From Lentilactobacillus diolivorans DSM 14421 (lineage in GTDB: Bacteria; Bacillota; Bacilli; Lactobacillales; Lactobacillaceae): DNA of 64,000 nt. Positions 7,568-43,115 of the stretch are shown here, one piece after another. Where the stretch lies: contig NZ_AZEY01000029.1 in assembly GCF_001434255.1 (NCBI RefSeq), forward strand, positions 1-64,000, read 5' to 3'. The position numbers and the translations under genes were made by a program. Numbering within the stretch: position 1 is the stretch's first letter; each line of letters starts with the position of its first letter. The notes under the pieces were generated by a model, which ran no database searches, was not told the origin of the DNA, and worked only from the letters and a program-made list of their open reading frames with translations.

Positions 7568-7665
7568 CAAGCAAGCACCGGCATAAAAGTCCCCTAACTT
7601 AATATTCCAAAATCGGGAATATCGAATTAGGGGACTTATATGTTGGGGCCTAACCGCTTGCTGAC
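7568..7665 (-). repeat. Long-hairpin repeat family 1, copy A
   Basis: Read on the minus strand it starts AGCAAGCGGTTAGGCCCC and then ATATAAG, matching the left arm of the copies at 11.8, 38.5 and 42.8 kb. The inner stem (7588-7608 with 7615-7637) is almost fully paired. It lies about 20 bp after the stop of the EutP-like gene, in that gene's orientation, and a T-run follows in that direction near 7555. Confidence 0.75.
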
Positions 7666-7685
7666 CCCCGTTGTTCTTGCTGGCG

Positions 7686-8114
7686 CTACTTTGCGAAGTA
7701 ATCGTTAAGCATTGGGATTGCTTCTCCAGTTAATGCTGAGACTTTAAAAATTTGTTGAATGCCGGCTTCACGTAATTGTCCGACCGCGTAGTCAATTTCT
7801 GCGGGAGTGGCAATATCGATCTTGTTAATAATCCCAATTGCTTGGGGTTGAAACATCGTGACAAAGCCAGGCGGAAAGATTGGTCGGTTATCAGTGGCAC
7901 TTTGAATGACTGCAATTATTTTGGCGTTCACCGACGTGGTAATTAACGGCGTGTAAAAATGTCGATTTTCAGTGTACTCTCCCGGAGTATCAATCATGTC
8001 GTCGCAGAATTCGATGGACTGAGTTTCACTAGACTGAATCTTTTGATGATGTAATCGCTGAATGAGGGTTGTCTTGCCAGAATTGTGGGCACCGACAAAC
8101 ATTGCTTTTCGCAT
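7686..8114 (-). CDS. EutP/PduV-family small GTPase, orphan
   Basis: 142-residue P-loop GTPase: Walker A GAHNSGKTT (residues about 8-16), switch-2 like DTPGEY, and the guanine-specific NKID motif. The DTPGEY motif is the hallmark of EutP/PduV proteins, normally found in ethanolamine or propanediol microcompartment operons. No other eut or pdu gene is present in this window, so its role is open. The start at 8114 is chosen because GGAG lies seven bases upstream, making the longer frame to 8141 unnecessary. It is monocistronic, followed by hairpin repeat copy A. Confidence 0.8.
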   Translation of the reverse strand: MRKAMFVGAHNSGKTTLIQRLHHQKIQSSETQSIEFCDDMIDTPGEYTENRHFYTPLITTSVNAKIIAVIQSATDNRPIFPPGFVTMFQPQAIGIINKIDIATPAEIDYAVGQLREAGIQQIFKVSALTGEAIPMLNDYFAK

Positions 8115-8313
8115 AACATCGCTCCTATTTATTATTCGCACGATCAGATACTTAACGCCTATTATTTTAACATGATTGGGTTAGCTGATAGTGAGAAATT
8201 TCGAAGAATCAATCGCGGCTTTGCAAAAAATCAGATAAAAATATGCAAATGATTAGTCGCCCCATGACAGATTGTGTCACAATGCAAGTAGGGGACTGAT
8301 GTCGTTGGACAAA

Positions 8314-8353
8314 AAATAACAACCACGGTCATCCGACAGCGTGGTTGTTATTT
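8314..8353 (-). terminator. Terminator of the tRNA-like gene
   Basis: 14-bp stem (8314-8327 with 8340-8353, AAATAACAACCACG and its complement), followed on the minus strand by six T. It lies 16 bp after the 3' end of the tRNA-like sequence. Confidence 0.85.
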
Positions 8354-8369
8354 AGTCATTATGGATTTA

Positions 8370-8442
8370 TGGGTGGCAAAGGAATTGAACCTTGTCTCCG
8401 GAATGATTATTCCGTTGCTCTACCAACTAAGCTAACTTCCCA
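8370..8442 (-). tRNA. Degenerate tRNA-like sequence (probable pseudo-tRNA)
   Basis: On the minus strand 73 bases carry recognisable tRNA parts: a D-arm close to TAGCTTAGTTGGTAGAGC, a T-arm GGTTCAATTCC, and an anticodon stem CGGAA/TTCCG. Defects suggest it is not a normal acceptor: the acceptor stem has internal mismatches (GGGAAGT against GCCACCC), the anticodon loop is six instead of seven bases, and no CCA is encoded. An amino acid identity cannot be assigned. A real terminator follows, so it may still be transcribed. It is either a decayed tRNA gene or a tRNA-mimic RNA. Confidence 0.6.
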
Positions 8443-8763
8443 AAATCATTTAGTGGTTATAAGATAACATAACTAAAATGACGCTTCAACGATATATTTG
8501 TTACAAATGTTGTAATAAATACATTGTGAATTAATCATTAAGAGATATCAGCGGTTATTGGGATAAGTAATTGAAACTTTTTTTGAAACTGAATTTAATT
8601 AGATTGCTTATCTTTCAGTAAAGAAAGCGGTTAATGAATAGTGAGATGATTATGGCAACCAAGTTAGAATTGAACTGATTTTTATTTTACTTCGTGATAT
8701 TGATATCAAAATGATATATAATAAAGTTATATTGTGGTATGCAACTTTGGAATTTGAGAGGAA
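8443..8763. other. Intergenic region with the apbE promoter
   Basis: No gene seen. A perfect small inverted repeat TTACAA-ATG-TTGTAA lies at 8501-8515. Near the downstream gene GTGATA (8694-8699), a 17-bp spacer and TATAAT (8717-8722) form a plausible promoter with a 10-bp palindrome TTGATATCAA (8700-8709) in the spacer, a candidate operator. Confidence 0.45.
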
Positions 8764-9708
8764 ATGGGGTTGTCAATGACAGTTAAAAGTCGAACCGCCC
8801 ATTTGATGGGTACTGTGATTAAAGTTCAAATTGAACATGATGATCCCGAACCAATCCTTGATGAAGTGGTTCGGCGATTAAAATCTTACGAACAACGGTT
8901 TAGTGCTAATGATCGTCGTTCAGAATTAATGCAAATTTCTCAAAAAGCTGGATTCGAGCCTGTCAAAGTTGATCCAGAACTATATCAGCTAATTAAAATT
9001 GGAAAACAGATCAGTGTTTATCAAAATGATAATTTGAACATTGCTATCGGGCCACTGGTGAGAACTTGGCGAATTGGGTTCAATGATGCGCGGGTCCCGA
9101 CCAAGTCAGAAATAAATTCCGCACTTGCTAAAACCAACCCAAACGATATTGAATTGGATGATACGCACCAGACAGTTTTTCTGCGGCGATTAGGGATGGC
9201 GATTGATTTAGGATCGCTCGCAAAGGGCTACTTTGCTGATTTGATTGCGGCTTATTTAAAGCAGCAGGACGTTGCCTCGGGATTAATTAATTTAGGTGGT
9301 AATGTTGTTGTCTTTGGCCCAAATTTTAAAACAACCTCTGGAAATTGGCGAATTGGGATTCAGGCACCTGGACAGCCCCGTGGCACCCATCGGTTGATCT
9401 TGAATCTGCAGGATAAATCGATTGTGACATCCGGAATTTACGAACGACATTTAGAACAAGCTGGTCATGACTACCATCATATTCTTGATCGACGGACCGG
9501 ATACCCGGTGAAAACAGATCTTGCCAGTCTGACCATTATTTCGGATCGTTCGATAGATGGTGAAATCTGGACCGGGCGACTGTTTGGTCTATCTCAGAAT
9601 GTGATCATCGCAAAGCTGGCAGTCATGGATGGGATTGATGGTGTCTTAATTAATAAGGATGGCAGTGTCATTTCTACGCTGCCAAAGCAAGCAACAGTTA
9701 TTTTATAA
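8764..9708 (+). CDS. apbE: FAD:protein FMN transferase (ApbE)
   Basis: ApbE moves FMN from FAD onto a Ser/Thr of target proteins, with Mg2+. Typical pieces are visible: the HLMGT start, a middle segment AIDLGSLAKGYFAD, LINLGGNVVVFG, and near the C-terminus SIVTSGIYERH followed by HHILDRRTGYPV, the family's substrate/metal region. At 314 residues without signal peptide or lipobox it is probably cytoplasmic. The start is ambiguous: GAGAGG (8756-8761) sits too close to ATG 8764, and TTG 8770 or ATG 8776 are alternatives. Two FMN reductases follow within 50-60 bp, so a shared flavin role is likely. Confidence 0.88.
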   Translation: MGLSMTVKSRTAHLMGTVIKVQIEHDDPEPILDEVVRRLKSYEQRFSANDRRSELMQISQKAGFEPVKVDPELYQLIKIGKQISVYQNDNLNIAIGPLVRTWRIGFNDARVPTKSEINSALAKTNPNDIELDDTHQTVFLRRLGMAIDLGSLAKGYFADLIAAYLKQQDVASGLINLGGNVVVFGPNFKTTSGNWRIGIQAPGQPRGTHRLILNLQDKSIVTSGIYERHLEQAGHDYHHILDRRTGYPVKTDLASLTIISDRSIDGEIWTGRLFGLSQNVIIAKLAVMDGIDGVLINKDGSVISTLPKQATVIL

Positions 9709-9769
9709 ACTAGATCAGAGTCGTGAATTGCGGCTGAAAATGTGATATTAAAATGGGGGATGACGATAA

Positions 9770-10387
9770 ATGAATAAATATATTGGAATTGTTGGAACAA
9801 ATACACAGCGATCGACCAACCGTCAACTATTACAGTTTATGGAACGCCATTATCAGGACCAGGCTGAAATTGAATTAGTCGAAGTGGCTGGTTTACCGAT
9901 GTTTAACAAGCCCGCCGATCGAGTGATTCCAGATCGGGCAGCTGAGATTGGTAAGAAAATTGATGAAAGCGATGGTGTGATTATTAGTACACCGGAATAT
10001 GATCATGCGGTTCCGGCTGTTTTAATGAATGCCTTAGAGTGGTTATCATATGGGATTCATCCGTTCTTAGATAAACCGGTCATGATTATCGGGGCATCAT
10101 TTGGGTCACTTGGGACATCCCGGGCGCAGGCTCATTTGCGGCAGATGCTTGATGCACCTGAACTTGGTGCTCGAATTATGCCAAGTTCAGAATATTTGCT
10201 TGGCCACGTTTTGGAAGCCTTTGATAAGGATGGCAATTTGAATGATCAGGGTCGAATTGACCGGCTTGATGCTTTATTTGCCGACTTTGAAGAGTTTGTC
10301 AAAATTTCCAAGGAACTTTGGCACACGACTGAATACGATAAGCAAGAAATCTCTAAGCTGGATAAAACTGACTTTGGTTCAAATTAG
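9770..10387 (+). CDS. NAD(P)H-dependent FMN reductase (flavodoxin fold)
   Basis: 205-residue flavodoxin-fold oxidoreductase. The N-terminal IVGTNTQRSTN is the FMN phosphate loop, and STPEYDHAVPAVLMNALEWLS is the conserved FMN/substrate segment of the FMN_red family, followed by KPVMIIGASFG. Such enzymes reduce FMN, quinones or azo compounds with NAD(P)H. No signal or membrane segment. A GGGGGA site precedes the ATG. It lies between apbE and a longer paralogue in what looks like one operon. Confidence 0.87.
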   Translation: MNKYIGIVGTNTQRSTNRQLLQFMERHYQDQAEIELVEVAGLPMFNKPADRVIPDRAAEIGKKIDESDGVIISTPEYDHAVPAVLMNALEWLSYGIHPFLDKPVMIIGASFGSLGTSRAQAHLRQMLDAPELGARIMPSSEYLLGHVLEAFDKDGNLNDQGRIDRLDALFADFEEFVKISKELWHTTEYDKQEISKLDKTDFGSN

Positions 10388-10434
10388 CCAAGTCGGTTTA
10401 ACTGTGAATTAAGGAAACATAAAGGAGACGCAAA

Positions 10435-11790
10435 ATGATGAAATTAGTTGGAATTGCCGGAACTGTTGAGGACAAGTCATACAACCGGATGCTGCTTGAA
10501 TTTATTGCAAACCATTTCAGTGGGCTAGTGGATATTGAAATTCTAAGTATTGACGATTTACCAATGTTTGATCAAGATAACGATGTTACAAACAGTGGCG
10601 CAGTTCAGTATCTGAATCGGAAAATCAGCAACGCTGACGGTGTGATCATCGCTACTCCGGAACATAATCATACAATTACGGCTGCGTTAAAGAGTGCTCT
10701 GGAATGGTTATCATTTAAGGTTCATCCGTTTTCAGACAAACCAGTCATGATTGTTGGTGCGTCCTATTATGAGCAGGGATCTTCACGGGCACAATTGAAT
10801 TTACGTCAGATATTGGAAGCTCCCGGGGTTAACGCAATTGTTTTCCCAGGAAATGAATTTTTACTGGCCAATGTGAAGGAAGCCTTTGATGACGATGGTA
10901 ATTTGAAAGACGAAAAGACGGTTGCTTTCCTGCAATCCAATTTGCAAAAATTCAAGAAGTTCGTCAAAGTGATTAATTCGATGAACAAAGCAGCTGGTGG
11001 GACTGATGAAGCAGCTCAGGCTGAAGATTTGGATGCGACTGGTAAGATTTCGACCACGGTTGAAGGCGTTGATATGACTGCCGATGACTGGGTTGAACAA
11101 GCTGCTAAAAAAGTCAACGCTGTTGATGGTAAGACATACGTTAAGTTAGATCGCGGTCTTTTGACAGTTGATCAATTAAACTATTTCTTAAATTCGATGC
11201 CAATTGAGTTGACTTATGCTGATAGTAATAATCAATTTATTTATTACAACAAGATGGGTGGCAAAATGTTGGCACCACGGACACCGGGCCAAGTTGGCGA
11301 TCCATTGTCAAAAGTTCATCCCAAGCGAGCTATTCGTGGCGTCAAGAGCGTTATTCACGCATTACGAACGGGTAAAACGGATATGGTTAGTATGCCGGTT
11401 CCTGGTAATGGTCCTGACAAATATATCATGCATTATTATAAGGCAATGCATGATGAAAAGGGCGAGTACGTGGGAATCAATGAGTTTGTCTTGGATTTGA
11501 TTCCAATTATTAAGTGGTACTTGAAGAAGACCGGTCAGAAATTGACGGCGGATCCAAACAACAAGGTCGATGCGGACGCGAGTGCTTCGACCAAGGATGA
11601 TTCATCAACGGATGCGGATGCCAGCGCGTCAGTGGATGATGATGCCGCTGATACCAGTGCTAATGTCGATACGGATGCAAGTGCATCAGTCGACGAGAAC
11701 GACGAATCAACCACAACCAATGATTCAAAAGGTAAGGATGATGGTGGTTCGGATGCAACGGCAAGCGCGTCGGTGGAGGACTGGGACTAG
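10435..11790 (+). CDS. FMN reductase fused to a PAS-like domain with an acidic DASAS-repeat tail
   Basis: Three parts. Residues 1 to about 180 are an FMN_red flavodoxin domain paralogous to the preceding protein (STPEYDHAVP here reads ATPEHNHTIT). Residues about 235-370 resemble a PAS-like/DUF438 C-terminal sensor module (YADSNNQFIYYNK, then HPKRAI and HYYKAM). From about 375 the tail is acidic and repetitive, with DASAS or DATASAS four times, ending VEDWD. AGGAG lies about eight bases before the start. The adjacency to apbE raises the possibility that the protein or its tail is flavinylated; GGSDATAS is only a loose match to the known motif. It is followed by hairpin repeat copy B. Confidence 0.82.
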   Translation: MMKLVGIAGTVEDKSYNRMLLEFIANHFSGLVDIEILSIDDLPMFDQDNDVTNSGAVQYLNRKISNADGVIIATPEHNHTITAALKSALEWLSFKVHPFSDKPVMIVGASYYEQGSSRAQLNLRQILEAPGVNAIVFPGNEFLLANVKEAFDDDGNLKDEKTVAFLQSNLQKFKKFVKVINSMNKAAGGTDEAAQAEDLDATGKISTTVEGVDMTADDWVEQAAKKVNAVDGKTYVKLDRGLLTVDQLNYFLNSMPIELTYADSNNQFIYYNKMGGKMLAPRTPGQVGDPLSKVHPKRAIRGVKSVIHALRTGKTDMVSMPVPGNGPDKYIMHYYKAMHDEKGEYVGINEFVLDLIPIIKWYLKKTGQKLTADPNNKVDADASASTKDDSSTDADASASVDDDAADTSANVDTDASASVDENDESTTTNDSKGKDDGGSDATASASVEDWD

Positions 11791-11794
11791 AACC

Positions 11795-11912
11795 AGAGTG
11801 TGAAAAGTCGCGGTTAGCTTCCAGAATATAACCCCTCTAAGCCAATATTCCTGATTCTGGAATATTGGCTTAGAGGGGTTATATGGCCGGAAGCTGCGAC
11901 TTTTCACACGTT
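11795..11912 (+). repeat. Long-hairpin repeat family 1, copy B
   Basis: Begins AGAGTGTGAAAAGTCGCGG five bases after the stop codon; the far arm ends CGACTTTTCACACG. Left and right arms pair over most of the length. The inner stem 11825-11851 pairs with 11859-11884. Outer arms are shared with copies A, C and D while the inner stem differs. Confidence 0.85.
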
Positions 11913-12150
11913 TCAGCCAAGTAAAATTGGAGACTAACCAAAAGACAAGTCGGGGTTTATATGGCCGGGATCTGCTTGGCTTTGCACGTTTCGGCCAAGT
12001 AAAATTGGAGATGAACCAAAAGAATAGTGAGGGGTTATATGGCCGGGATCTGCGACTTTTCACACGTTTCAGCCAAGTAAAATTGGTGATTAACTGACCT
12101 ACTTTGCCTTATATGGCCGGGATCCACTACGCTCTCAAAATATCACATCA
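11881..12150 (+). repeat. Tandem array of about 78-bp units
   Basis: Units beginning ATATGGCCGG start at 11881, 11959, 12037 and 12111 (periods 78, 78 and 74). Each contains CACGTTTCxGCCAAGTAAAA and ATTGGxGAxxAAC; the last is partial. The units repeat the right arm of hairpin copy B, so the array probably grew by duplication of that arm. Confidence 0.85.
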
Positions 12151-12181
12151 AAGTTGTCCCATTCCAATCAAAATAGGTAGT

Positions 12182-12230
12182 AAAAGCATGAAACGGCCCG
12201 CCAACCAGCGGCCGCTTCATGCTTTTATTA
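12182..12230 (+). terminator. Intrinsic terminator
   Basis: Stem AAAAGCATGAA-x-CGGCC (12182-12198) pairs with GGCCG-x-TTCATGCTTTT (12210-12226), then TATTA. It closes the flavin module and repeat array. Confidence 0.8.
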
Positions 12231-12304
12231 TGCTATCGGATTTGGTGATATACTAAATGTAGAATTAAAAAAAGGGCTTTTAGTAATCTGATTTCATTCC
12301 GATA

Positions 12305-12333
12305 TTGACATTGGTAAAACCTTAACGGATAAT
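12305..12333 (+). promoter_or_regulatory. Sigma-A promoter of the two-gene unknown unit
   Basis: TTGACA (12305-12310), a 17-bp spacer and GATAAT (12328-12333): consensus -35 and one mismatch in -10. Confidence 0.75.
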
Positions 12334-12371
12334 AAAATAATCACTATTTGGATGAAAGGGTTGTTTATTTG

Positions 12372-12953
12372 ATGTTAAATTGGATTGAGCTTGCGGATGA
12401 CATTATTCACGCAGGTGTTGTGCCGGGTCCACCACATCATTGGTACCAAAATTCGGTCTGGGTGGGAACAAAAGAAATGATTTCACTACTAACGTTACTA
12501 GGGGTATTGATTGCCATTGCAACGTTTTATCGAAATTCCAGAGTTAGAAAATTTGATATTACGCTTCAAGCAATTGATTTTTACAATCATGAAATCCGGG
12601 ATGCAATTAACGATTTTTCGGATTCGTTCAATGAATCTTTGGTTGATAATAAATTTCAAGGGAAAGATATTAATACAGCGATGATAATTGTTGCTAAGAA
12701 TTTGGATATTCGAAAAGTAATCCATTTATTAGATGAGTTGGGATTCTATTTTACTAATCGAAATATTAACTCTTTTCAGGTTAAAGCGGTCATCAGTTCA
12801 GAACTGATAGCCTTTTTGAGAGATAGGAAATATCGTAAGTTGATTAATCATTTTGTTAGTCAGTCTAATTTAATTGGTATCCAAAATTTGTATGAGAATA
12901 TCGGATTAGAAAATGGAAGTGATCAAAATGGCTCAAAAGATACCCACATATGA
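12372..12953 (+). CDS. Single-span membrane protein of unknown function
   Basis: About 193 residues. After a short N-terminal part with GPPHHWYQN comes one transmembrane helix (MISLLTLLGVLIAIATFY), then a soluble helical domain with no motif I recognise (ITLQAIDFYNHEIRDAINDF, HLLDELGFYFTNR). The layout resembles DUF4760-type proteins, but the match is only by architecture. The frame is open to a TTG at 12348; ATG 12372 or TTG 12369 fit better, 8-11 bases after AAAGGG. It overlaps the next gene by 26 bp, implying translational coupling. Confidence 0.65.
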   Translation: MLNWIELADDIIHAGVVPGPPHHWYQNSVWVGTKEMISLLTLLGVLIAIATFYRNSRVRKFDITLQAIDFYNHEIRDAINDFSDSFNESLVDNKFQGKDINTAMIIVAKNLDIRKVIHLLDELGFYFTNRNINSFQVKAVISSELIAFLRDRKYRKLINHFVSQSNLIGIQNLYENIGLENGSDQNGSKDTHI

Positions 12954-13218
12954 AAATCCAAAGGTAATTAAAGCAAAGAAAGAGGCACAGAAAGTTATTC
13001 AAGAGATTGATGATGGCAAGATAACGAGGGAAAAGGCTGAACTTGATGCTGTAAATAGCGTTTTAGAGGAATTGGGTCAACCTAAAGTCACCAACTTGAG
13101 TGACAAAAAATCAGTTGGATGGCGTAAACGTTCAAAAAGGATTCAAAGAAAGATTGCAATTCAGGATTTTTTAAATGTAATCACCTTTGGCCTTTACCAA
13201 GGTAAAGGTCCATACTGA
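12928..13218 (+). CDS. Small basic protein of unknown function
   Basis: 96 residues, Lys/Arg-rich, no signal or membrane helix. The N-terminal half is probably a charged helix pair (KVIKAKKEAQKVIQEIDDGK); the C-terminal part is strongly basic (WRKRSKRIQRK) and ends FGLYQGKGPY. Nucleic-acid or membrane-surface binding would be plausible but is not shown. It starts inside the preceding membrane-protein gene; ATG 12928 has GGAAGTG upstream, and ATG 12913 is an alternative. A terminator follows, closing a two-gene unit. Confidence 0.6.
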   Translation: MAQKIPTYENPKVIKAKKEAQKVIQEIDDGKITREKAELDAVNSVLEELGQPKVTNLSDKKSVGWRKRSKRIQRKIAIQDFLNVITFGLYQGKGPY

Positions 13219-13265
13219 ACTTAAAAGTTCGTGACTATTTTTGGAAAAGATTTGTTGATAAAATA

Positions 13266-13313
13266 AAGAAACGTTGGTGACAGTGAAAATATACTGTCTC
13301 CAGCGTTTCCTTT
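13266..13313. terminator. Intrinsic terminator, near-symmetrical
   Basis: GAAACGxxGGxGACAGT (from 13268) pairs with ACTGTCxCCxxCGTTTC (to 13309), loop of about eight, then CTTT. A-rich sequence on the left lets it work on both strands. Confidence 0.8.
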
Positions 13314-13540
13314 GATACACCAACCATGTTGATTTATTAGCAACGCAATCTGTTCAGGGCGACTTTCAAGTCAACATCATTAAAACAATCGTTAACATGT
13401 CTCAAAAGGGATAAACTGGCAAGAATAATCATTTGCAACTAACGGCTGATTTTTGCGATGAAGTAATCGTATAATGAAACTAATCATGCTTGGATTATCT
13501 GGAATTTGAAGATAGGCCATCATTAAATTGGAGGCTTTTT
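13314..13540 (+). promoter_or_regulatory. pepX upstream region
   Basis: No gene. A perfect TATAAT lies at 13470-13475 with no good -35 box at the usual distance. GGAGG about seven bases before ATG 13541 is the pepX ribosome binding site. Confidence 0.5.
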
Positions 13541-15949: not shown

Positions 15950-16115
15950 TATCAATAATAGCTATACGGCAAGGGTATTCCAGTACGACTGGTTGGTACT
16001 GGTACCAGAACCTTTTACTTGAACGTGGCACCGACAGGGTGATCTTTAGGTCATGATATAATAAAACCTAACCGTAAGCGATTTTGCATTTACAGAATGG
16101 AGGATTGGTTTAGCA

Positions 16116-16724: not shown

Positions 16725-16876
16725 ACGGTTAGTTAGTATAAATGGTTTCACAAAAAAGTATTCCCAGATCATCATAATCGAGATATAATAATATTCGTGC
16801 TGTAATTAAGGAAAGTATGGCGGCTGCTAAAGTCGTTGGCTACTTTCCTATTAATTTGTTTATGAAATGAGGGGTT

Positions 16877-17620: not shown

Positions 17621-17627
17621 TAAAAAG

Positions 17628-17678: not shown

Positions 17679-17740
17679 TATGATGGTTATCTGGAACATC
17701 ATTCTTTGGATAAAAGTCAAGTTGTCTATCATTATTTAAA

Positions 17741-32462: not shown

Positions 32463-32496
32463 AACTTTAAGGGTATTATCGTTTGAAAATATTGAT

Positions 32497-33447: not shown

Positions 33448-33507
33448 AATAAGTTTCCTCCTTAATTTGCTAAGGCACATTTTATAAATATGAAAAGAGG
33501 TTATACC

Positions 33508-34494: not shown

Positions 34495-34620
34495 TAGTGC
34501 TTCTATACACAATGTCTAAAAAATATCATTTAAATTCCCTTGTTATTTCAATAAAATACTGTTATGCCAGGTGCTTACCGGATGGAAATATTGTGATTAA
34601 AATAATTAGCCCCAAACCCA

Positions 34621-34650
34621 TTGCATTTTGTAAACGATTTCATTTATAAT
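34621..34650 (+). promoter_or_regulatory. Promoter of the GPH symporter gene
   Basis: TTGCAT (34621-34626), 18-bp spacer, TATAAT (34645-34650). Confidence 0.72.
34629..34642 (+). promoter_or_regulatory. CcpA cre site
   Basis: TGTAAACGATTTCA matches TGWAANCGNTNNCA at every position and lies in the spacer of the symporter promoter, so glucose should repress transcription. Confidence 0.75.
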
Positions 34651-34670
34651 GGTCACAGTTTTAAAAACAT

Positions 34671-34696
34671 GTTTTGCAAAACGGATTTATAAAATG
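34671..34696. promoter_or_regulatory. Putative ROK-repressor operator, symporter side
   Basis: GTTTTGCAAAAC (perfect 12-bp palindrome), two bases, then ATTTATAAAATG. The same 26-bp arrangement recurs at 37612-37637 before the dehydrogenase gene. It begins about 21 bases after the -10 box, as at the other site. Confidence 0.72.
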
Positions 34697-34733
34697 CAAT
34701 TGTTAAATTAGATAAATGAACGGGGTGTAGATT

Positions 34734-36215
34734 TTGAAGCAATATTTATCATATGCGTTTGGAACCTTTGGTCACGATGCATTTTACAATACATTGAGTA
34801 TTTATTTTATGATGTTTATTACCAGTCAATTATTTACAAATTCCAGTGATGCCGGTATGGTCAGCATTGTCACGACAATTATCGTCTGTATTCGAGTTGG
34901 GGAAATTATGTTTGATCCAATGATTGGGGCTGCTGTTGATAATACCAAGACCCGTTGGGGGAAATTTCGACCTTGGATTATGATCGGTTCTGTCGTTGCG
35001 TCGATTGGGCTTGTCTTCTTGTTTTCAGATTTCTTTGGATTAAGTTACAGCAATCCATTAATTTACTTGATTCTCCTTGGGGTTACGTTTGTTGTGATTG
35101 ATGTCTTTTATTCATTTAGTGATATCGCAATTTGGTCAATGCTACCAGCCTTGAGTATCGATAATAAAGTTCGGACACGCTATGGTACCGCTGCCCGAAT
35201 TGGATCAACGCTTGGCGCTCAAGTGGTTATTATCATTATCACACCAGCCATTATGCTGTTCTCACACTTGTTTTCCAAAGTGCCGTTTGGCCAGCAAACT
35301 CACGCGGGTTGGTTAGGGTATGTTGTCATCGTTGCACTATTATGTTCGGGCGGTGCGTTAATTACCTGTTTAACGATTAAAGAAAAAGATAGTTTGATTC
35401 GAAGCAATGTGAAGCATACTAAATTTACGGATGTCTTTAAGGTGATTGGTAAAAACAAAGTGTTGTTATGGATTGCCTTATCCTATTTCTTATTCGCTTT
35501 TAGTTACGTTGTGACTAATTCACTGTTGATGTATTACTTCAGGTATCGACTTGGCAACGCTGCTGCCTATACTTGGGTCGGTGTTATCACTTGTGTCTTG
35601 GGAGTAGTTTCAGTTGCGTTGTTCCCAGCTCTTGATGCTTGGATTCATCGAAAAGCTATCTATGTCGGCGGAATTGCGTTCATGCTAATTGGCTACATTA
35701 TCTTTTTGTTCGCCGGTTCAAGCTTACCATTGGTATTACTTGCAGTTGCCTTTTATTTCTTCCCATACCCACTGATTTTCTTGGCCACTTTGATGGTTAT
35801 TACTGACAGTGTTGAGTATGGTCAATTAGTGAGTGGCGTGCGAAACGAATCAGTTACGTTGTCTGTTCGACCGTTAATTGATAAATTGGCGGGAGCGGCT
35901 TCTAACGGAATTGTCGGAATTGTTGCGGTTGCCGCGGGGATGACTGGGAATGCCAACCCATCTGACATTACTGCCCATGGTGTCTTTCAGTTTAATATGT
36001 TTATGTTCTATATTCCAATTGCTTTACTGATTATTGCGGCTTTGATTTTCTTTGCTAAAGTTAACTTATCAGAAGCGCAACATGCCGAAATCGTTAAAAC
36101 GTTAAATGCCAGATTGGAAAAAGAACAGCAGGTTAGTTCTTTAAAAGATGGGGTGCAGACTCCTGTTAGTCATCGCGATCTTGGAACCTCTCCAACCAGC
36201 AATTCACAGATTTAA
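34734..36215 (+). CDS. GPH-family (glycoside-pentoside-hexuronide) symporter
   Basis: 493-residue, 12-helix cation symporter. FDPMIGAAVDNTKTRWGKFRPW is shortened here to its core: the DP and the RWGKFRPW motif after helix 2 mark the GPH family, which imports pentoses, pentitols or glycosides. The start is TTG 34734, preceded by GGGGTG; no ATG fits. With a polyol-type dehydrogenase and an FGGY kinase sharing the same operator and cre control, its substrate is probably a pentitol or pentose. Confidence 0.85.
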   Translation: MKQYLSYAFGTFGHDAFYNTLSIYFMMFITSQLFTNSSDAGMVSIVTTIIVCIRVGEIMFDPMIGAAVDNTKTRWGKFRPWIMIGSVVASIGLVFLFSDFFGLSYSNPLIYLILLGVTFVVIDVFYSFSDIAIWSMLPALSIDNKVRTRYGTAARIGSTLGAQVVIIIITPAIMLFSHLFSKVPFGQQTHAGWLGYVVIVALLCSGGALITCLTIKEKDSLIRSNVKHTKFTDVFKVIGKNKVLLWIALSYFLFAFSYVVTNSLLMYYFRYRLGNAAAYTWVGVITCVLGVVSVALFPALDAWIHRKAIYVGGIAFMLIGYIIFLFAGSSLPLVLLAVAFYFFPYPLIFLATLMVITDSVEYGQLVSGVRNESVTLSVRPLIDKLAGAASNGIVGIVAVAAGMTGNANPSDITAHGVFQFNMFMFYIPIALLIIAALIFFAKVNLSEAQHAEIVKTLNARLEKEQQVSSLKDGVQTPVSHRDLGTSPTSNSQI

Positions 36216-36266
36216 CTTAATTTAAATTGTAAGCGTTTAATAATGATGTAGATTCTGAAAATAAAC

Positions 36267-36310
36267 AAACGACCCAGATATTCTTCTTTTGAATATCTGG
36301 GCCGTTTATT
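36267..36310. terminator. Bidirectional intrinsic terminator
   Basis: AAACxxCCCAGATATTC (36267-36283) pairs with GAATATCTGGGxxGTTT (36291-36307), with T-rich flanks on both strands, between the convergent symporter and ROK genes. Confidence 0.85.
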
Positions 36311-36328
36311 TATTTTGAACCTTAATGA

Positions 36329-37438
36329 TTAGACACTTTCCACAAATGATTCAATCCTCGGAATTGCTGCGCCAATCGCAACTGGTCGAGCGGTGACCAT
36401 TCCCAGGCTCAAGTAAGAATGATCCTCTGGAAAGGCAGTAATGTTTCGAATCCGTTGGTCAAGGTCCTTGATGACTGAACTGTCTAAGTAACGAATTAAT
36501 TCTCCGGCGATGACTAATCGATTGTCCAAAAACATATGAAGATTATTGATTGCCTCGGCCAGAAAATTCAAATAGATGTGCCAGCGATGCTGCGTTTCTT
36601 CGTCACCAGCTTTTAAGCTCGCCATAAAATCTTCAATCGATTCATCTTCATTTAGCAACGAACTCATTGAACAGTAGGTCTCGATGCAACCATGACGGCC
36701 ACAGTAACACTTTCGGTCGCTCTGCGTATTTAAGGTAATGTGTTCCATTGTCCCGCTGCGACCATTTTCCCCTGAATAGATTCGATTATTAATTACAATG
36801 GCGGTCCCCAGATGCTCGCCAATAGAAAGATAAGTGGTGTCCTGGTGGCTATTCGTTAGGAACTGTTCAGCTGCCGCAACACAGTCGGCATCATGGTAAA
36901 AAGAAACCGGATATGGCAGATACTTGCCTAATGACTCGGTGGTTAGACCGGTAGATTCCAAAATCTTACCCCAAAGGACAGTTTGACCATCATGGGAAAC
37001 AAGTCCTTGAACACCCATTCCAATTCCCAGAATATGTTTATCAGCTAATTTATTTTTGTCAGTAAACGAGTTGATCCAGGTCGCGAGTTTCTTAAAGTAG
37101 GCGTCATCATTTGAATATGAAAGTTTTTCAGTTGCCGTCGCCGTTTCCTTGCCGTTTAAGTCTAACGCTGAGATGGTGACGTGTTCTTTAAAAATTTCAA
37201 TGCCAAGTGACACATGAGTATTGGCAGAAACGGAATAGGCTTTTGCGCGCCGGCCCACCTGCGATTCAAATTTGCCACCAATTCGAATGAGCTTGTTTTT
37301 CTTTAATTCAGTTAAATTTGAACTGACGGTTGGTAAACTAAGATTTAATTCCAGTGCGATTTCCTGTTTTGAAATTTTCTCGCGTTGGTAAATTAAATTG
37401 AAAATCCGTGAATAATTATCGTTACTATTCCTATCCAT
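36329..37438 (-). CDS. ROK-family transcriptional repressor (XylR/NagC type)
   Basis: 369-residue regulator. Residues about 10-65 form a winged helix-turn-helix (KQEIALELNLSLPTVSSNL). A ROK sugar-binding domain follows: GIGMGVQGLV, the sugar-binding FYHDADCVAAAE, LGTAIVINNRIYSG, and the zinc motif CYCGRHGCIETYCS. Start 37438 is preferred (ATG after GGTGG); 37450 is an alternative. Divergent from the dehydrogenase gene. The shared palindromes GTTTTGCAAAAC before both transport and dehydrogenase genes are the natural candidates for its sites. Confidence 0.87.
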   Translation of the reverse strand: MDRNSNDNYSRIFNLIYQREKISKQEIALELNLSLPTVSSNLTELKKNKLIRIGGKFESQVGRRAKAYSVSANTHVSLGIEIFKEHVTISALDLNGKETATATEKLSYSNDDAYFKKLATWINSFTDKNKLADKHILGIGMGVQGLVSHDGQTVLWGKILESTGLTTESLGKYLPYPVSFYHDADCVAAAEQFLTNSHQDTTYLSIGEHLGTAIVINNRIYSGENGRSGTMEHITLNTQSDRKCYCGRHGCIETYCSMSSLLNEDESIEDFMASLKAGDEETQHRWHIYLNFLAEAINNLHMFLDNRLVIAGELIRYLDSSVIKDLDQRIRNITAFPEDHSYLSLGMVTARPVAIGAAIPRIESFVESV

Positions 37439-37543
37439 AATGCCACCCATAACCCCTCTATTAAATGTTTGTCTAGTACAAAAATAGCATGTCACAAAAG
37501 AAAAAGCAATTTTGTAAATTAGGGTTAAAAATCATTTTAGAAA

Positions 37544-37561
37544 ATAGTTTTATAAAACTAT
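37544..37561. promoter_or_regulatory. 18-bp perfect palindrome, second ROK-type operator
   Basis: ATAGTTTTATAAAACTAT is a perfect palindrome directly upstream of the -35 box of the dehydrogenase promoter. Its GTTTTxxAAAAC core matches the operators at 34671 and 37612. Between the divergent genes it could also control the repressor itself. Confidence 0.7.
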
Positions 37562-37589
37562 TGACAGCGCTATCATTTTGTTTTAGTAT
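37561..37589 (+). promoter_or_regulatory. Promoter of the SDR dehydrogenase gene with overlapping cre
   Basis: TTGACA (37561-37566), 17-bp spacer, TAGTAT (37584-37589). The cre-like TGACAGCGCTATCA (37562-37575) overlaps the -35 box and fits the looser consensus TGWNANCGNTNNCA. Confidence 0.72.
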
Positions 37590-37611
37590 TTATGTTGCAT
37601 TAAGATAAATC

Positions 37612-37637
37612 GTTTTGCAAAACTAATTTATAAAATG
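37612..37637. promoter_or_regulatory. Putative ROK-repressor operator, dehydrogenase side
   Basis: GTTTTGCAAAAC, two bases, then ATTTATAAAATG, identical in arrangement to 34671-34696 and starting 22 bases after the -10 box. Confidence 0.72.
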
Positions 37638-37688
37638 TGTCTAAGATTTACAATATGCAACTATTTCAACACACTAGGAGGCACCAAC

Positions 37689-38465
37689 ATGGGTATTTTA
37701 GATAGAATGTCCCTCAAAGGAAAAAGCATTTATGTTACCGGCGGCGCGCAAGGATTAGGCAAAGCAATGGCAACAGGTTTGGCGGAAGCCGGCGCCGATG
37801 TCGCAATTGTCGATATCAACGAAGACAAGGCTAAAGCAACTGCTAAAGAGATTGCCGATGCAACTGGTCAAAAGGCAATTGCCATTAAAACTGACGTGAC
37901 TGATCCTGATCAAGTTCAACACATGGTTGACACCGTTGTTTCAGAGCTTGGTGGTTTGGACGCTGCGTTTAACAATGCCGGCATGTGCTTGAACATTCCT
38001 GCTGAAGACATGTCATATGAAGATTGGTTAAAAGTCGTTAACTTGAACTTGAATTCAGTATTCCTTTGTTCACAAGCAGCTGGTCGTTACATGATCAAAC
38101 AAGGCAAGGGCTCAATTGTCAACACTGCTTCGATGTCGGCTCACATTGTTAACCGACCACAACCACAATGTTCATACAATGCAACTAAGAATGGTGTCAT
38201 TCAACTTTCAAAATCATTAGCCATTGAATGGGCTAAAAAGGGTGTCCGGGTTAACACAATCAGCCCAGGTTACATGGGAACTGATTTGACACTTAGCTCA
38301 CCAGACTTGAAGCCATTAATTAAGACATGGAATGACTGGGCACCACTTGGTCGTTTAGGCCGTCCTGATGAATTGCAAGGAATGGCAGTATACTTGGCCG
38401 GTGATACCAGCAGCTTCTCAACGGGTGATGATTACTTGGTTGATGGTGCGTTTACGGCGTGGTAA
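37689..38465 (+). CDS. SDR-family polyol/sugar dehydrogenase
   Basis: 258-residue classical short-chain dehydrogenase: cofactor motif TGGAQGLGKAMA, DVTDPDQV, NNAG, catalytic Ser in NTASMSAH and YNATK (Tyr/Lys), then SPGYMGTDL. Members of this group oxidise D-arabitol, sorbitol or xylitol. With an FGGY kinase downstream and a GPH symporter sharing operator and cre, oxidation of a pentitol to a pentulose is a sensible role, but substrate is inferred. Start 37689 follows AGGAGG by eight bases. Hairpin repeat copy C begins six bases after the stop. Confidence 0.87.
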   Translation: MGILDRMSLKGKSIYVTGGAQGLGKAMATGLAEAGADVAIVDINEDKAKATAKEIADATGQKAIAIKTDVTDPDQVQHMVDTVVSELGGLDAAFNNAGMCLNIPAEDMSYEDWLKVVNLNLNSVFLCSQAAGRYMIKQGKGSIVNTASMSAHIVNRPQPQCSYNATKNGVIQLSKSLAIEWAKKGVRVNTISPGYMGTDLTLSSPDLKPLIKTWNDWAPLGRLGRPDELQGMAVYLAGDTSSFSTGDDYLVDGAFTAW

Positions 38466-38470
38466 AAACC

Positions 38471-38590
38471 AGAGTGTGAAACCAAGCGCTTAGCTCCCAG
38501 AATATAAGGGTCCCGAATCAAATATTCTGGGTTTGAATATTTGATTCGGGACCCTTATATTCTGGGAGCTAAGCGTTTGGTTTCACACGT
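38471..38590 (+). repeat. Long-hairpin repeat family 1, copy C
   Basis: The most perfect copy: nearly 60 bases pair with the next 60 around a 7-base loop. It runs from AGAGTGTGAAACCAAGCGC to GTTTGGTTTCACACG; the inner stem is 38503-38527 with 38535-38559. A TTTT follows. It may attenuate transcription between the dehydrogenase and kinase genes. Confidence 0.85.
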
Positions 38591-38836
38591 TTTAGCTCAT
38601 GACCATACTATATCGAGAAATGGAACTAGCCGCTCTCACTGTAATTTTCAGCTGAGCAAGTCACTAAATTATGAACCAAACACAAACTGAACGTGCGTGA
38701 ACCATTGATCTTTTACTGAAGTCTTCTCGATGGTCGCTACACAGTTTTGAACTGGTTATTCGAAGGGCTGTCGTTAGCTTTTATGTCTAATGAGGTTTTA
38801 AGACAGCCATACTCTAGGAAGAAGAAGGAATATATC
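38591..38836. other. Gap between repeat copy C and the kinase gene
   Basis: I see no gene and no clear promoter here. AAGGA at 38828-38833 is the kinase ribosome binding site. Confidence 0.4.
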
Positions 38837-40402
38837 ATGAAATATCTTATTGGTACCGACATTGGTACATCGGGGACAAAAAGTATTTTGATGGACACGG
38901 ATGGTCATTTAATTGCCCAAGATTTGGAAGAATATGATGTGTTAACGCCTCATCCACTTTGGGCTGAACAATGGCCAAACGTTTGGGTTGATGCGGTAAA
39001 AACATCAATTCGTAAAACAGTTGAAATTGCCGGCGTCGATCCAAAGCACATTGTTGGCATTGGAATTAGTGGCTTATATGGCGGTTCTGGTGTGCCATTG
39101 GATGAAAATATGGAACCGGTTCGACCAGATTTGATTTGGATGGATCGACGAGCTCAAGAAGAAACAGAATGGGTCAAGGAACATGTTGACGGCAAACGCC
39201 TTACCGAAATTACCGGTAACGACGTGGTCGATCCTTATTATGGTTATACGAAGATTCTTTGGATTAAGAATCATGAGCCTGAAAACTGGCGTAAAATTCG
39301 GATGTTCCTACCACCAAGCAACTATGCCATTTATCAACTAACCGGCAAGGTCTCAATTGATCATTCTGCTGCGGGTAACTTAGGCGGATTATACGATGTC
39401 AATACAAATACCTGGTCAAAAGAAATGCTGGATGCAATGGGGATTCCCGAATCAATGATGCCAGAACCATTGGTTGATTCAACCACCATTGTTGGTGGCT
39501 TGACCAATGACGCGGCAGCTGAACTTGGCTTGGCTGCTGGAACACCAATTATTTCCGGTGGGGTTGATGTGGGTGCTGCCAACGTTGGTATGGGTGTTTT
39601 CAAGCCTGGTAAGTACGTTGCCGCAATTGGTTCATCAATGAATGCCGCTTTGGTGAGCGAAGAACCCATTAAGGGACAAGGACTCATCGTTTGGCCATAT
39701 CCTTACAACTCTGAGCATTTAGTTTATAATTTCTCTGGTTCTGCAACTGCCGGCGCAATTACCAAATGGTTCCGTGATAATATTGGCGACTTGGAAGTTC
39801 ACAATCAACACAACGGTGGAGATAACGCATACGTGGCGTTGAATAAGGAATCCAAGAATATTGGTCCAGGTAGTGAAGGTTTGGTGGTTCTACCATATTT
39901 CATGGGTGAACGGGCACCAATTTGGAACTCGGATGCTAAAGGGTTAATCTTTGGTCTCTCGCTGGTTCACACTAAAGCACACCTATATCACGCTTTTCAA
40001 GAGGCAGTTTGTTATGCTTTACGTCATAGTATCGAAAGCACTGGTCGCAATCTTGGTGAGTACATTGTGATTGCCGGTGGGGTAACCAATTCACCTGATT
40101 GGGTTCAAATGTTTGCCGATGTCACTGGGTACGCAGTTCGAACACCAATTGAAGATGCTGAGGCCAACCTTGGCGATGTTATGTTAGCTGGTATTGGTAC
40201 GGGGACTCTGACGGTGGAAGATGTGCAAAAGTGGCAAGTCTTAGGGAACCCAGTTAAGCCTGATCCCGTTCGTCACGATATTTATAACAAATACTATCAG
40301 CTTTATCGCAAGTTATACCAAGACCTTGAAGGCGATATGCACGAATTAAGCGAAGTAGAGAAAGCTTCCGAAAAAATGTTAGGAAGTACAGTTGAAGCAT
40401 AG
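38837..40402 (+). CDS. FGGY-family carbohydrate kinase (xylulokinase-like)
   Basis: 521-residue sugar kinase. The first phosphate-binding loop GTDIGTSGTKSIL, the substrate region SGLYGG and PDLIWMDRRA, the second ATP loop GSSMNAAL, and VIAGGVTNSPDWVQMFADV near the C-terminus mark the FGGY family. The likely reaction is phosphorylation of a pentulose such as D-xylulose, feeding the phosphoketolase pathway. Start 38837 is set by AAGGA; the frame is open to 38747. The hairpin repeat separates it from the dehydrogenase. Confidence 0.85.
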   Translation: MKYLIGTDIGTSGTKSILMDTDGHLIAQDLEEYDVLTPHPLWAEQWPNVWVDAVKTSIRKTVEIAGVDPKHIVGIGISGLYGGSGVPLDENMEPVRPDLIWMDRRAQEETEWVKEHVDGKRLTEITGNDVVDPYYGYTKILWIKNHEPENWRKIRMFLPPSNYAIYQLTGKVSIDHSAAGNLGGLYDVNTNTWSKEMLDAMGIPESMMPEPLVDSTTIVGGLTNDAAAELGLAAGTPIISGGVDVGAANVGMGVFKPGKYVAAIGSSMNAALVSEEPIKGQGLIVWPYPYNSEHLVYNFSGSATAGAITKWFRDNIGDLEVHNQHNGGDNAYVALNKESKNIGPGSEGLVVLPYFMGERAPIWNSDAKGLIFGLSLVHTKAHLYHAFQEAVCYALRHSIESTGRNLGEYIVIAGGVTNSPDWVQMFADVTGYAVRTPIEDAEANLGDVMLAGIGTGTLTVEDVQKWQVLGNPVKPDPVRHDIYNKYYQLYRKLYQDLEGDMHELSEVEKASEKMLGSTVEA

Positions 40403-40500
40403 TTAGAAATTGATTACAAAGGTTTAAGATAATCACTAAATTTTATGTCACAAAAGGGATCGCTTCTAAAAATAAATAAAATAAAATTCTGCTCGAATTA

Positions 40501-40550
40501 AACCGACCAACCATTAGATTTCCTAGTCTAGTGGTTGGTCGGTTATTTTT
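40501..40550 (+). terminator. Intrinsic terminator
   Basis: AACCGACCAACCA (40501-40513) pairs with TGGTTGGTCGGTT (40532-40544), then ATTTTT. Ends the kinase transcript. Confidence 0.88.
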
Positions 40551-40861
40551 GTAAGCATATTAATAAGTTAGTGTACTTTTGGGCGCTTGAATTTATATCC
40601 AGCTAACTTGCTTTTTGATTGTAAGTCTCTCCATTTTTTCTGTTCAACGCCGTCTCCCTTTTGGAAAATAGTTATCTGAGCTATTTTTTAAGGATTGCCA
40701 ATGATTATTATCGTCAGCGAGGCGAACGAGATTTTTAGCAGTATTTCAGAGAACAGAGATTAAAGTAACCGGGGAATCTCTATCGATTTTTAATACCTGT
40801 TGACATTTTACTTGGATGTGCGTTATTGTAATAACATTAAGAATTTATGAGAACAAAATGT
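40551..40861. other. Intergenic stretch with the T-box promoter
   Basis: No gene seen. TTGACA at 40800-40805 is a good -35; the matching -10 is weak (TTATTG at 40823-40828). The leader RNA begins shortly after. Confidence 0.45.
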
Positions 40862-41160
40862 AACGACGAAGAAAGTAGTCAATTTCAATTTTGGTCAGCG
40901 AACCCGGTCTAGTGAAAGCGGGGGCAAAATGCGATTGGTGAAAATCACTTTTGAGCTGTGGGCTGAATATAGTAGGCAACCACCGGTACGCAACCGTTAG
41001 AAATGCGGCAAATCGCAATTTGGCGTCTCACTTTGATCCTAGCTTAGTGAGTAACGTTCTAGGACAAGTTGCCGTTTGTGTGAGGCTTTTTTAGCAAACA
41101 AAGGTGGTACAGTGCGAGAGTGCCCTTTCAGAATTAATTTTCTGGAAGGGCGCTCTTTTT
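40862..41160 (+). ncRNA. T-box leader of the oppA-type gene
   Basis: tRNA-sensing leader that ends in an antiterminator/terminator switch. The T-box sequence AAAGGTGGTACAGTGCG lies at 41099-41115, and the terminator GCGAGAGTGCCCTTTC (from 41114) pairs with GGAAGGGCGCTC before five T. Upstream, a Stem I-like part spans about 40865-40980 with the apical CCCGGTCTAGTGAAAGCGGG. The specifier codon cannot be fixed; the region CTTTTGAGCTG is the candidate loop. Uncharged cognate tRNA should allow expression of the downstream binding protein. Confidence 0.82.
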
Positions 41161-41213
41161 GTCGATACAGATTAATTTCTCATTAAATTCTCAAAAAGCT
41201 AGGAGGATGAATC

Positions 41214-42812
41214 ATGAAACATAAACTATTAACTTTAGCAATGACAATTTTAATGGCTGGATCTTTGGCAGCCTGTGGCAAGAGTGCCGCGCATTCAGGC
41301 AAAACTTTAAATGTGACGCTGCCAGATGAACCAGCAACCGTTGATCCCAATACGGCATATGATACCAATAGTGCCAGCCTGATCACTCAGACGATGGAAG
41401 GGCTGTACAAGTATGATAAAAACAACCGGATTGTTGCCGGGGTTGCGACAAAAGTTGTTAAACCAACGAATAATGGTAAAACGTATCGGTTCCAGTTACG
41501 CAAAAATGCCAAATGGAGTAATGGGCAACCCGTTACGGCAAATGATTTTGTGACGTCATTTCGGCGAACTGTAAATCCAAAGACGAAGGCACAATTTGCC
41601 AGTGTTTATGATTGCTTCAAGAACTTTGATGCCGTTCAAGCTGGCAAAATGTCACCAGATAAATTAGGTGTTAAAGCTTTGAATTCACGGACATTACAAA
41701 TTCAATTGACCCGGGCGGTGCCGTATTTCAATGACTTGGTAACTAACAAATATTTACCAATTAATTCAAAATCAGTTAGTAAGTATGGTAAGCAATTTGG
41801 AACCAGTTCAACTAAGTCGGTTTATGACGGCCCGTATAAGCTGGTCGGCTGGTCTGGCAGCAATTCATCTTGGCATTATGTCAAAAATCCTTATTATTGG
41901 AATGCACACAATGTGAAAATTCCTAAAGTGAACGTGACGGTTACTAAAGAGCAGAATACAGCCGTTAACCTGTTTAAATCCGGAAAAATTCAAGTCACTT
42001 CGGTAACCGGCCAGTATGTGCGTGAGAATAAAAATGATCCGGAAATGCATACACATTTAACCGGACGTGAAAACTATCTTTACTTCAATAATAAAAAGCC
42101 ACAAACTGACTCTGAAAATTTGCGGCAAGCAATTTCAGCGGTTATTAATCGCAAGGAATTAGTTAATAATGTTCTCCAAGACGGTTCGAAGCAAATGCTA
42201 AGCGCGGTTCCGGAAGGTGATCAAAAGGATCCGGCAAATGGTAAAGACATGGCTAAAGAAGTGGGGAACTTGTTACCTCAAAATGTCGCCAAGGCTAAGC
42301 AATATTGGAATGCTTATTTGAAAGAAGTCGGTAAGAAGCAGGTAACTCTTAACCTATTGACTGATGATACGGATCAGGATAAGCATACGGGTGAATATAT
42401 CCAATCGGTTGCTCAAAAGAACTTGAAGGGCTTAAAGGTTACGATGACTTCGATTCCGCATGCGCAACATGTGTCACGGGATTTTGCCGGTAATTTTGAA
42501 ATGAATTTAACTGGCTGGTCGACCAACTGGTTGGATGCTTCGGACTTCTTAGGATTGGGAACGTCAACGAATCAAGTTAACTTTACGCATTTGAAGAATG
42601 CAAAATTTGACAGTCTGATGAATCAGTCAAATCATCTGAGTGGCCAAGCCAGATACAATAAGTTGGTCCAAGCGGATAAGTACTTCACTGCATTTAAGGG
42701 GTATGTCCCGTTGTATCAACCGGCTCAAGCAAATTTAATCAGTAAGCATGTGGGTGGATTGAAGTATTCGTTGTTGAATGACGCGCAGTATCAGTATGCG
42801 TATTGGAAATAA
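41214..42812 (+). CDS. Peptide ABC transporter substrate-binding lipoprotein (OppA family)
   Basis: 532-residue SBP_bac_5 protein catching oligopeptides outside the membrane. A lipoprotein signal ends in LAAC with Cys21 as the lipid site. PDEPATVDPNTAYD, EGLYKYD, KNAKWSNGQPVTANDF and FRRTVNP are OppA marks. AGGAGG precedes the ATG. No permease or ATPase gene is adjacent, so it must use a transporter encoded elsewhere. Its own T-box ties expression to shortage of one amino acid. Repeat copy D follows two bases after the stop. Confidence 0.92.
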   Translation: MKHKLLTLAMTILMAGSLAACGKSAAHSGKTLNVTLPDEPATVDPNTAYDTNSASLITQTMEGLYKYDKNNRIVAGVATKVVKPTNNGKTYRFQLRKNAKWSNGQPVTANDFVTSFRRTVNPKTKAQFASVYDCFKNFDAVQAGKMSPDKLGVKALNSRTLQIQLTRAVPYFNDLVTNKYLPINSKSVSKYGKQFGTSSTKSVYDGPYKLVGWSGSNSSWHYVKNPYYWNAHNVKIPKVNVTVTKEQNTAVNLFKSGKIQVTSVTGQYVRENKNDPEMHTHLTGRENYLYFNNKKPQTDSENLRQAISAVINRKELVNNVLQDGSKQMLSAVPEGDQKDPANGKDMAKEVGNLLPQNVAKAKQYWNAYLKEVGKKQVTLNLLTDDTDQDKHTGEYIQSVAQKNLKGLKVTMTSIPHAQHVSRDFAGNFEMNLTGWSTNWLDASDFLGLGTSTNQVNFTHLKNAKFDSLMNQSNHLSGQARYNKLVQADKYFTAFKGYVPLYQPAQANLISKHVGGLKYSLLNDAQYQYAYWK

Positions 42813-42813
42813 C

Positions 42814-43115
42814 AGAGTGTGACAAAAAGCGGTTAGATCCCAGAATATAAGTCACTTAAGCTTAATATTCCGGGCCTGAATATTAAGCTTAAGTGGCTTA
42901 TATGGCCGGGATCTGCTTTTTGTCACACATTTCAACCAGGTAGCCAGTCCAAATCGAATATTCTGGTTTTGAATATTTGATTTAGTGACTTATATGGCCG
43001 GAAGCTGCTTGCTGTCACATGTTTCAACCAAGTACCCAGCTCAAAACAAATATTCCGTTCCTAAATATTGAGTCTAAGTGATTTGTATGCCCAGAATCTG
43101 CTATTGATCACAATC
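42814..43115 (+). repeat. Long-hairpin repeat family 1, copy D, with tandem half-units
   Basis: AGAGTGTGACAAAAAGCGG starts two bases after the stop codon; the far arm ends CTTTTTGTCACACA near 42928. Inner stem 42846-42870 pairs with 42878-42900. Two degenerate further units follow, each ending in TATATGGCCGGAAGCTGC-like sequence (about 42991 and 43085), a period of roughly 91 bp. Confidence 0.82.

Follow-up and report, generated by a model that had tools for sequence, protein, structure and literature searches.

A family of long hairpins sits behind stop codons in a 64,000-nucleotide stretch of the Lentilactobacillus diolivorans DSM 14421 genome (contig NZ_AZEY01000029.1, positions 1 to 64,000 of the forward strand), called the window here. 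An earlier note on this DNA had described four copies, each just after a gene; all four were recovered at those places by covariance-model matches, and each folds into a single long hairpin. The family is large, real and apparently undescribed and unnamed. It is probably a non-autonomous mobile hairpin repeat of Lactobacillaceae chromosomes and plasmids. The four copies (c1 to c4), the genes upstream of them with their Pfam assignments, and the structures that follow them are:

7398..7432, minus strand, terminator-like hairpin that follows c1 and is seen again after other copies
7552..7674, minus strand, copy c1, model match of 96.4 bits, outer end partly degraded
7686..8141, minus strand, gene upstream of c1, PduV-EutP family
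10435..11790, plus strand, gene upstream of c2, FMN reductase and PAS domains
11793..11916, plus strand, copy c2, model match of 131.9 bits
11917..12150, plus strand, three extra 3' half-units of c2, with TATATGGCCGG at 11958, 12036 and 12110
37635..38465, plus strand, gene upstream of c3, short-chain dehydrogenase family
38469..38595, plus strand, copy c3, model match of 101.4 bits, a near-perfect palindrome that has lost the usual loops
41214..42812, plus strand, gene upstream of c4, solute-binding protein family 5
42812..42935, plus strand, copy c4, model match of 126.2 bits, its flanking genes 15 nt apart in genomes G005 and G009
42957..43112, plus strand, two extra 3' half-units of c4

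The predicted fold energies of c1 to c4 are -62, -86, -104 and -68 kcal/mol. The distance from stop codon to element is about 13-14 nt for c1, 4 nt for c2, 5 nt for c3 and 1 nt for c4, and every copy is in sense orientation to its upstream gene. Two details of the earlier description need correction. The outer end of c1 (the 7568 copy) reads ACAACGGGGG in place of AGAGTG, and c3 (the 38471 copy) has 54-nt arms that match at 98% and carries no asymmetric loops.

The unit is a hairpin of about 110 nt that begins with AGAGTG and continues with a variable but paired outer stem of 14 bp, a 4-nt 5' bulge (GGTT, with the variants GATT, GTTT and GCTT), a 7-bp stem (AGATCCC/GGGATCT) and an internal loop (AGA/GGCC). 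The inner stem of about 25 bp begins with ATATAAG and encloses a loop of about 7 nt, and the unit closes with CACGTTT and a conserved tail. A covariance model, as the earlier note had suggested, was built from 42 copies of the own genome, and the fold is supported far beyond chance. Pairing holds in 97.8% of cells, compared with 82.4% when shuffled and 33-47% when the arms are slid, and covariation scores 0.454, compared with 0.151 for shuffled copies. The compensatory change described in that note is real, since 33 of 46 pairs have changed on both sides, a count equalled by none of 500 shuffles. The inner stem has 89 distinct sequences among 105 aligned copies. A second hairpin subfamily, GGTTAACTTCC ... 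GGATAATTCGG ... GGAAGTTGCC, occurs in the same genome with weaker model scores of 69-106 bits (L052:1807-1928, L037:911-1036, L124:834-949 and L129:2521-2642).

In the own genome (3.26 Mb, 109 contigs) blastn gives 98 pieces, and the covariance model gives 145 rows, or 144 distinct places after one palindromic twin is dropped. The model search scored 150 of 1834 first-look candidates, so further copies are possible, and the four weakest rows (50-59 bits) may be unrelated. Near-identical hairpins that differ at 2-6 positions are found at separate loci. Beyond this genome, the search across Lactobacillaceae that the earlier note had called for found the family to be widespread: with 11 candidates scored per genome, 96 of 301 family genomes, the own included, match at E <= 1e-9, in 20 of 40 genera. 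In a set of 60 genomes, 22 (again with the own) match at E <= 0.001, two of them by one weak match. The relatives labelled G are taken as Lactobacillaceae by inference from named carriers, and exact-pattern matches occur in Levilactobacillus yonginensis, Secundilactobacillus malefermentans and S. similis. One relative, G006 (2 contigs), has 90 model rows, 78 of them distinct after removal of 12 reverse-strand twins and 30 at 95 bits or more. Weak matches in distant genomes are perhaps unrelated long hairpins, as a true copy read on its reverse strand still reaches about 40-90 bits through its structure alone. Within the window, a long hairpin at 36226-36345, soon after a sugar-transporter gene whose stop is at 36215, scores 43 bits with the family model and is probably an unrelated terminator, not a family member.

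Full or partial copies are also carried by plasmids, with matches at E <= 0.001 in 36 records from 7 genera, 2 of which cover >80% of the query. On two plasmids no base separates the match from the annotated stop codon of the gene before it, which is fabI or a nucleobase symporter gene. Phage records gave no match to one 122-nt query. On the plasmids of L200 (Pediococcus damnosus) and L201 (Levilactobacillus brevis) the hairpin ends abruptly within the inner stem; the annotation of L200 places an ISL3 transposase gene just downstream of the break-off, and in L201 a match to IS1165-like (ISL3) DNA starts about where the hairpin breaks off.

Position relative to genes was examined in 96 own-genome copies, chosen by score and retrieval and not at random, with genes taken as open reading frames (ORFs) called by codon score in this analysis. 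The set was drawn from 141 of the 145 rows, the four weakest being left out, less the twin, 41 further rows and three window copies; one of the four window copies thus belongs to it and the other three are in the 105-copy alignment. The nearest upstream gene is in sense for 71 of the 96 and on the opposite strand for 25, and in 19 of those 25 an opposite-strand gene also lies downstream. Measured from AGAGTG, the stop of the sense copies is at -5 to +2 in 46 of the 71 and at +4 to +25, within the element, in 10; in the other 15 it is at -28 or further, and in none does it fall at -27 to -6. Stop-adjacent sense copies therefore number 56 of 96. Of the 96 copies, 56% have an ORF of at least 100 codons that ends between -8 and +24 of the element, compared with 2.1% of 3000 random positions. 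A similar test in relatives found 27 of 53 copies to be stop-adjacent, and 16 of 33 in G006. The gap between stop-adjacent and distant copies is less clean there because of copies at -6 to -10: the 27 include four at -6 to -8, and a longest-ORF check places the upstream ORF end at -9 or -10 in two copies.

The earlier note had described the hairpins as starting just after a stop and pointing the same way as the gene. That description holds for the four window copies (1-14 nt) and fails as a rule for the family, as the own-genome and relatives' counts show: stop adjacency is a strong tendency, not a law. Random orientation elsewhere, which the note had named as damaging to its structural claim, was half borne out: orientation is biased and not fixed, and a quarter of the set (25/96) has its upstream gene on the opposite strand. 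A preference at the DNA level for stop-like trinucleotides regardless of frame is unsupported in this opposite-strand class, where 12 of 25 copies have one in any frame against 39% of control windows. Among the 15 sense copies that are not stop-adjacent, 13 carry a stop-like trinucleotide whose end lies no more than 5 nt ahead of AGAGTG (control windows 39%) with no long ORF called, which perhaps reflects short or decayed genes.

The mismatches within the stems bear on how the family spreads. Mutation without strand-specific constraint is expected to yield G-T and A-C mismatches about equally. The 105-copy set, made of 150 aligned rows (the best of 208 matches) minus 45 that overlap a better row, contains 143 G-T and 23 A-C mismatch cells; 95 of its copies were classed by position and a few belong to the second subfamily. 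Because copies share ancestry, mismatches were also counted as types. Among types shared by at least three copies the ratio of G-T to A-C is 18:1 in the own genome and 9:0 in the 53 copies of relatives; in types found in two copies it is 7:2 and 7:0, and in those found in one copy it is 13:15 and 15:13. Pooled, types shared by at least three copies stand at 27:1 and private types at 28:28 (Fisher test of at least three copies against one: p = 0.0006 own, 0.015 relatives, 8e-6 pooled). As the G-T excess is limited to shared types, the folded sense strand may be what the spreading machinery recognises. We read this as a sign from sequence that the sense-strand fold came under selection during spread, with neutral decay of, or little selection on, resident copies. 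The opposite-strand class is G-T-biased as well (39:2, counted as cells). Rare mismatches stand at 7:13 in the stop-adjacent copies and at 6:1 and 8:2 in the other two classes, although these numbers are small and mixed.

A second process appears to act on the arms. In at least five of the 105 copies a conserved and normally unpaired feature has given way to sequence that is the reverse complement of the opposite arm:

window 38471, whole 3' arm overwritten
C72:23917, 5' bulge lost
C8:67634, 3' internal loop rewritten
C17:63420, 3' internal loop rewritten
second hairpin in L118, 3' internal loop rewritten

Overwriting of conserved loops is expected from template switching and not from selection for pairing alone. 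Close copy pairs differ chiefly by single changes and distant pairs more by double changes, a pattern that would fit point mutation followed by selection or rewriting. The earlier note had offered two causes for the matched arms, selection on structure and renewal of one arm from the other, and both have left visible traces, as strand-biased selection and as overwritten arms.

Comparison with relatives identified sites that lack the hairpin. At the c4 site the own genome has 353 nt, whereas in G005 and G009 the stop codon is separated from the next start by a 15-nt spacer that holds a ribosome site; the site is hairpin-free in G003 and G014 too. The c3 site is hairpin-free in G023, a genome without any model match. 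In G012, which is another species, a hairpin with the same ends, another core and one extra 3' unit lies directly after the same stop as c3 (L148 / G012:C190:14360-14510); this alternative core has matches in 10 of 24 genus genomes and none in the own genome. G023 also has hairpin-free counterparts of six more own copies, and its chromosomal fabI homologue served for comparison with one plasmid-type copy. At 7 of these 9 sites (c3, c4 and the seven others, the fabI homologue included) the stop position is unchanged in the counterpart. Of the other two, C20:13560 has an own protein that exceeds its counterpart by two codons, and C100:6678 has a different gene end, with the stop inside the element. 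Three sites lie in likely operons (c4, C20:50969 and C100:21850), where the relative's spacer measures 15, 9 and 18 nt; at two of them (c4 and C20:50969) there are flank repeats of 6-7 nt.

The 3' part of the unit is itself repeated. One to five extra 3' units, each consisting of loop, 3' arm and tail and recognised at no more than 3 mismatches in a 12-mer, follow 69 of the 94 copies for which 300 nt or more could be read downstream, mostly at a spacing of 84-95 nt. At the fabI locus there are two extra units in the own genome and none in S. malefermentans, L. yonginensis or Loigolactobacillus backii, and across these four the flanks are 99.6-99.8% identical upstream and 98.7-99.2% downstream. 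The 3' half-units behave as a variable-number repeat. A terminator-like palindrome, GAGACTGGGACAAAA...TTTTGTCCCAGCCTC, recurs after the diverged last unit in several copies (window 7398-7432; L054, L114 and others).

The view that this is a mobile repeat is drawn from the dispersed copies, the hairpin-free sites, the near-identical copies at different loci, the variable numbers of half-units and the covarying fold. We propose that the spreading machinery would recognise the folded sense strand, as single-stranded DNA or as RNA, and that template switching between the arms may refresh the stems, so that stem sequence drifts while pairing is kept. Insertion or retention would favour the site directly after an in-frame stop, where the copy would become the first structure of the 3' untranslated region (UTR). 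A more specific version, in which the hairpin is delivered to natural stops through translation termination or mRNA 3' ends as a folded sense strand and without a Y1 transposase or reverse transcriptase, seems rather improbable to us.

Several points weigh against a mobile repeat. No copy was caught moving, and no empty site turned up within the same species; same-plasmid empty sites were likewise missing among the matches listed (40 of 77 and 40 of 372 records). Target-site duplications do not exceed those of shuffled flanks in 90 copies, whose right end is often uncertain (5.97 vs 5.79), nor do they in the 19 copies near a next gene (78 vs 82 shuffled). Y1 transposase is present in 7 of 24 genus genomes only and is missing from G006 with its 78 distinct matches, and reverse transcriptase, found in 8 of the 24, is present in neither the own genome nor G006. 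Since neither is consistently present in carriers, both were rejected as the general mobiliser. The contrast between singleton and shared mismatches could instead reflect purifying selection in place, recent mutations having not yet been purged; the alignments behind the strand test had been fitted to the model, and mismatch types of the own and relative sets may have a common origin. A separate idea, that the left flank is copied from the tail, was rejected (3.95 vs 3.79, with a shuffled maximum of 4.05).

The strongest rival is a 3' UTR RNA element selected by the host, kept as helpful to its gene because it protects the mRNA 3' end, serves as an RNase III target or separates neighbouring genes. 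The sense copies at the stop, with none lying 6 to 27 nt after it, the stop-adjacent copies of relatives, the covariation and the excess of G-T cells would all suit such a role. The opposite-strand copies, whose G-T excess is no lower, and the rare mismatches of stop-adjacent copies, which show no such excess, speak against a purely host-serving 3' UTR element, as do the several hairpin-free sites in relatives, three of them in likely operons, and the less clean distance gap seen there. Taken together these points leave it a possible explanation that we consider unlikely.

A classical miniature inverted-repeat transposable element (MITE), moved by a DDE transposase acting on terminal inverted repeats, would explain the pairing GTG...CAC ends, the dispersed, intergenic and high-copy distribution and the repeats that flank two of the three operon sites. 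Target-site duplications do not exceed those of shuffled flanks, however, although the right end of the copies is often uncertain, and the stop-to-element distance varies by several nucleotides, which leaves no fixed target dinucleotide; we regard this origin as very unlikely. The earlier note had said that transposase-linked copies would make the family a MITE. Such a link did not emerge for Y1 transposase and reverse transcriptase, which are not consistently present, and other transposases were not searched for.

Slightly less probable again are ordinary intrinsic terminators that have been multiply copied. Their position after the stop and long stem would agree with this, a pattern search marks the c3 inner stem on either strand and those of c2 and c4 on the reverse one, and a separate terminator-like hairpin lies further downstream of some copies. 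A run of five T within 8 nt after the closing CAC is nevertheless found in only 1 of 96 copies; four have 5 T in total and most have 3 or 4. In addition, the genes on either side of three copies are separated by 9, 15 and 18 nt in relatives. Least probable of all is a REP-like element mobilised by a Y1 transposase of the RAYT or IS200/IS605 type through recognition of the single-stranded hairpin, for although the strand-specific fold, the conserved bulge and the 3 Y1 matches in the own genome suit it, the enzyme is absent from seven genomes with at least 33 model matches each (G006, G014, G018, G004, G022, G009 and G003), so that Y1 as general mobiliser is largely refuted and an enzyme since lost is possible.

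By plan the family may be likened to small bacterial palindromic mobile repeats, and we claim membership in none. REP/BIME elements with RAYT transposases are high-copy extragenic bulged hairpins, single or clustered. The present family is likewise a bulged extragenic hairpin repeat in many copies, but most carriers have no Y1 transposase, the hairpin is longer and its array repeats one arm only. The attC sites of integrons are hairpins that follow a gene's stop, with conserved ends and a variable paired stem, and are recognised as single-stranded DNA. In contrast, the genes examined beside the present hairpins resemble ordinary chromosomal ones, with no search made for an integron integrase. 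YPAL palindromes of enterobacteria are dispersed hairpin repeats in transcribed intergenic regions. ERIC elements are described as co-transcribed, with an orientation that is crucial for their effect on mRNA (PMC2229807). Compared by plan only, ERIC and YPAL resemble the present family as dispersed intergenic hairpin repeats; the latter occupies another host group, has fixed asymmetric loops, tandem 3' half-units and a sharp stop-codon position, and has no Rfam match. RUP and Correia/NEMIS are also small non-autonomous repeats, and the RNA stem-loops of NEMIS have been proposed as RNase III targets (PMC2229807). Unlike them, the present family shows no excess of target duplications over shuffled flanks and has strand-biased covariation; a partner insertion sequence was not found, with only Y1 and reverse transcriptase searched. 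Template-switch hairpins show multi-base compensatory changes and stems made or repaired by copying one arm from the other (PMC8794818). Both traits recur here; that work concerns the histories of RNA genes, while the present case is a dispersed repeat with unpaired loops overwritten.

The earlier note knew of no named element with this plan, and Rfam agrees: across the whole window no family matched the hairpins at its gathering score, and at 42780-43140 only miRNA and snoRNA models appeared, below their gathering scores. No paper naming the family was found in a literature search that reached few subscription papers; a stem-loop survey mentions L. johnsonii (PMC2267715). Elsewhere in the window, a T-box leader lies at 44475-44703 (94.6 bits against a gathering score of 93).

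With more than 100 paired stems in one genome, the family offers a natural set for separating compensatory change, template switching and strand-specific selection, and it cautions that covariation by itself is no proof of host RNA function. Effects of the repeats on expression in food and brewing bacteria are possible, because one sits behind fabI on plasmids. The preference for the bases after a natural stop is the most surprising property of the family. If the repeat truly locates in-frame stops, then either translation would be read indirectly or 3' UTR structure would be selected far more sharply than has been assumed.

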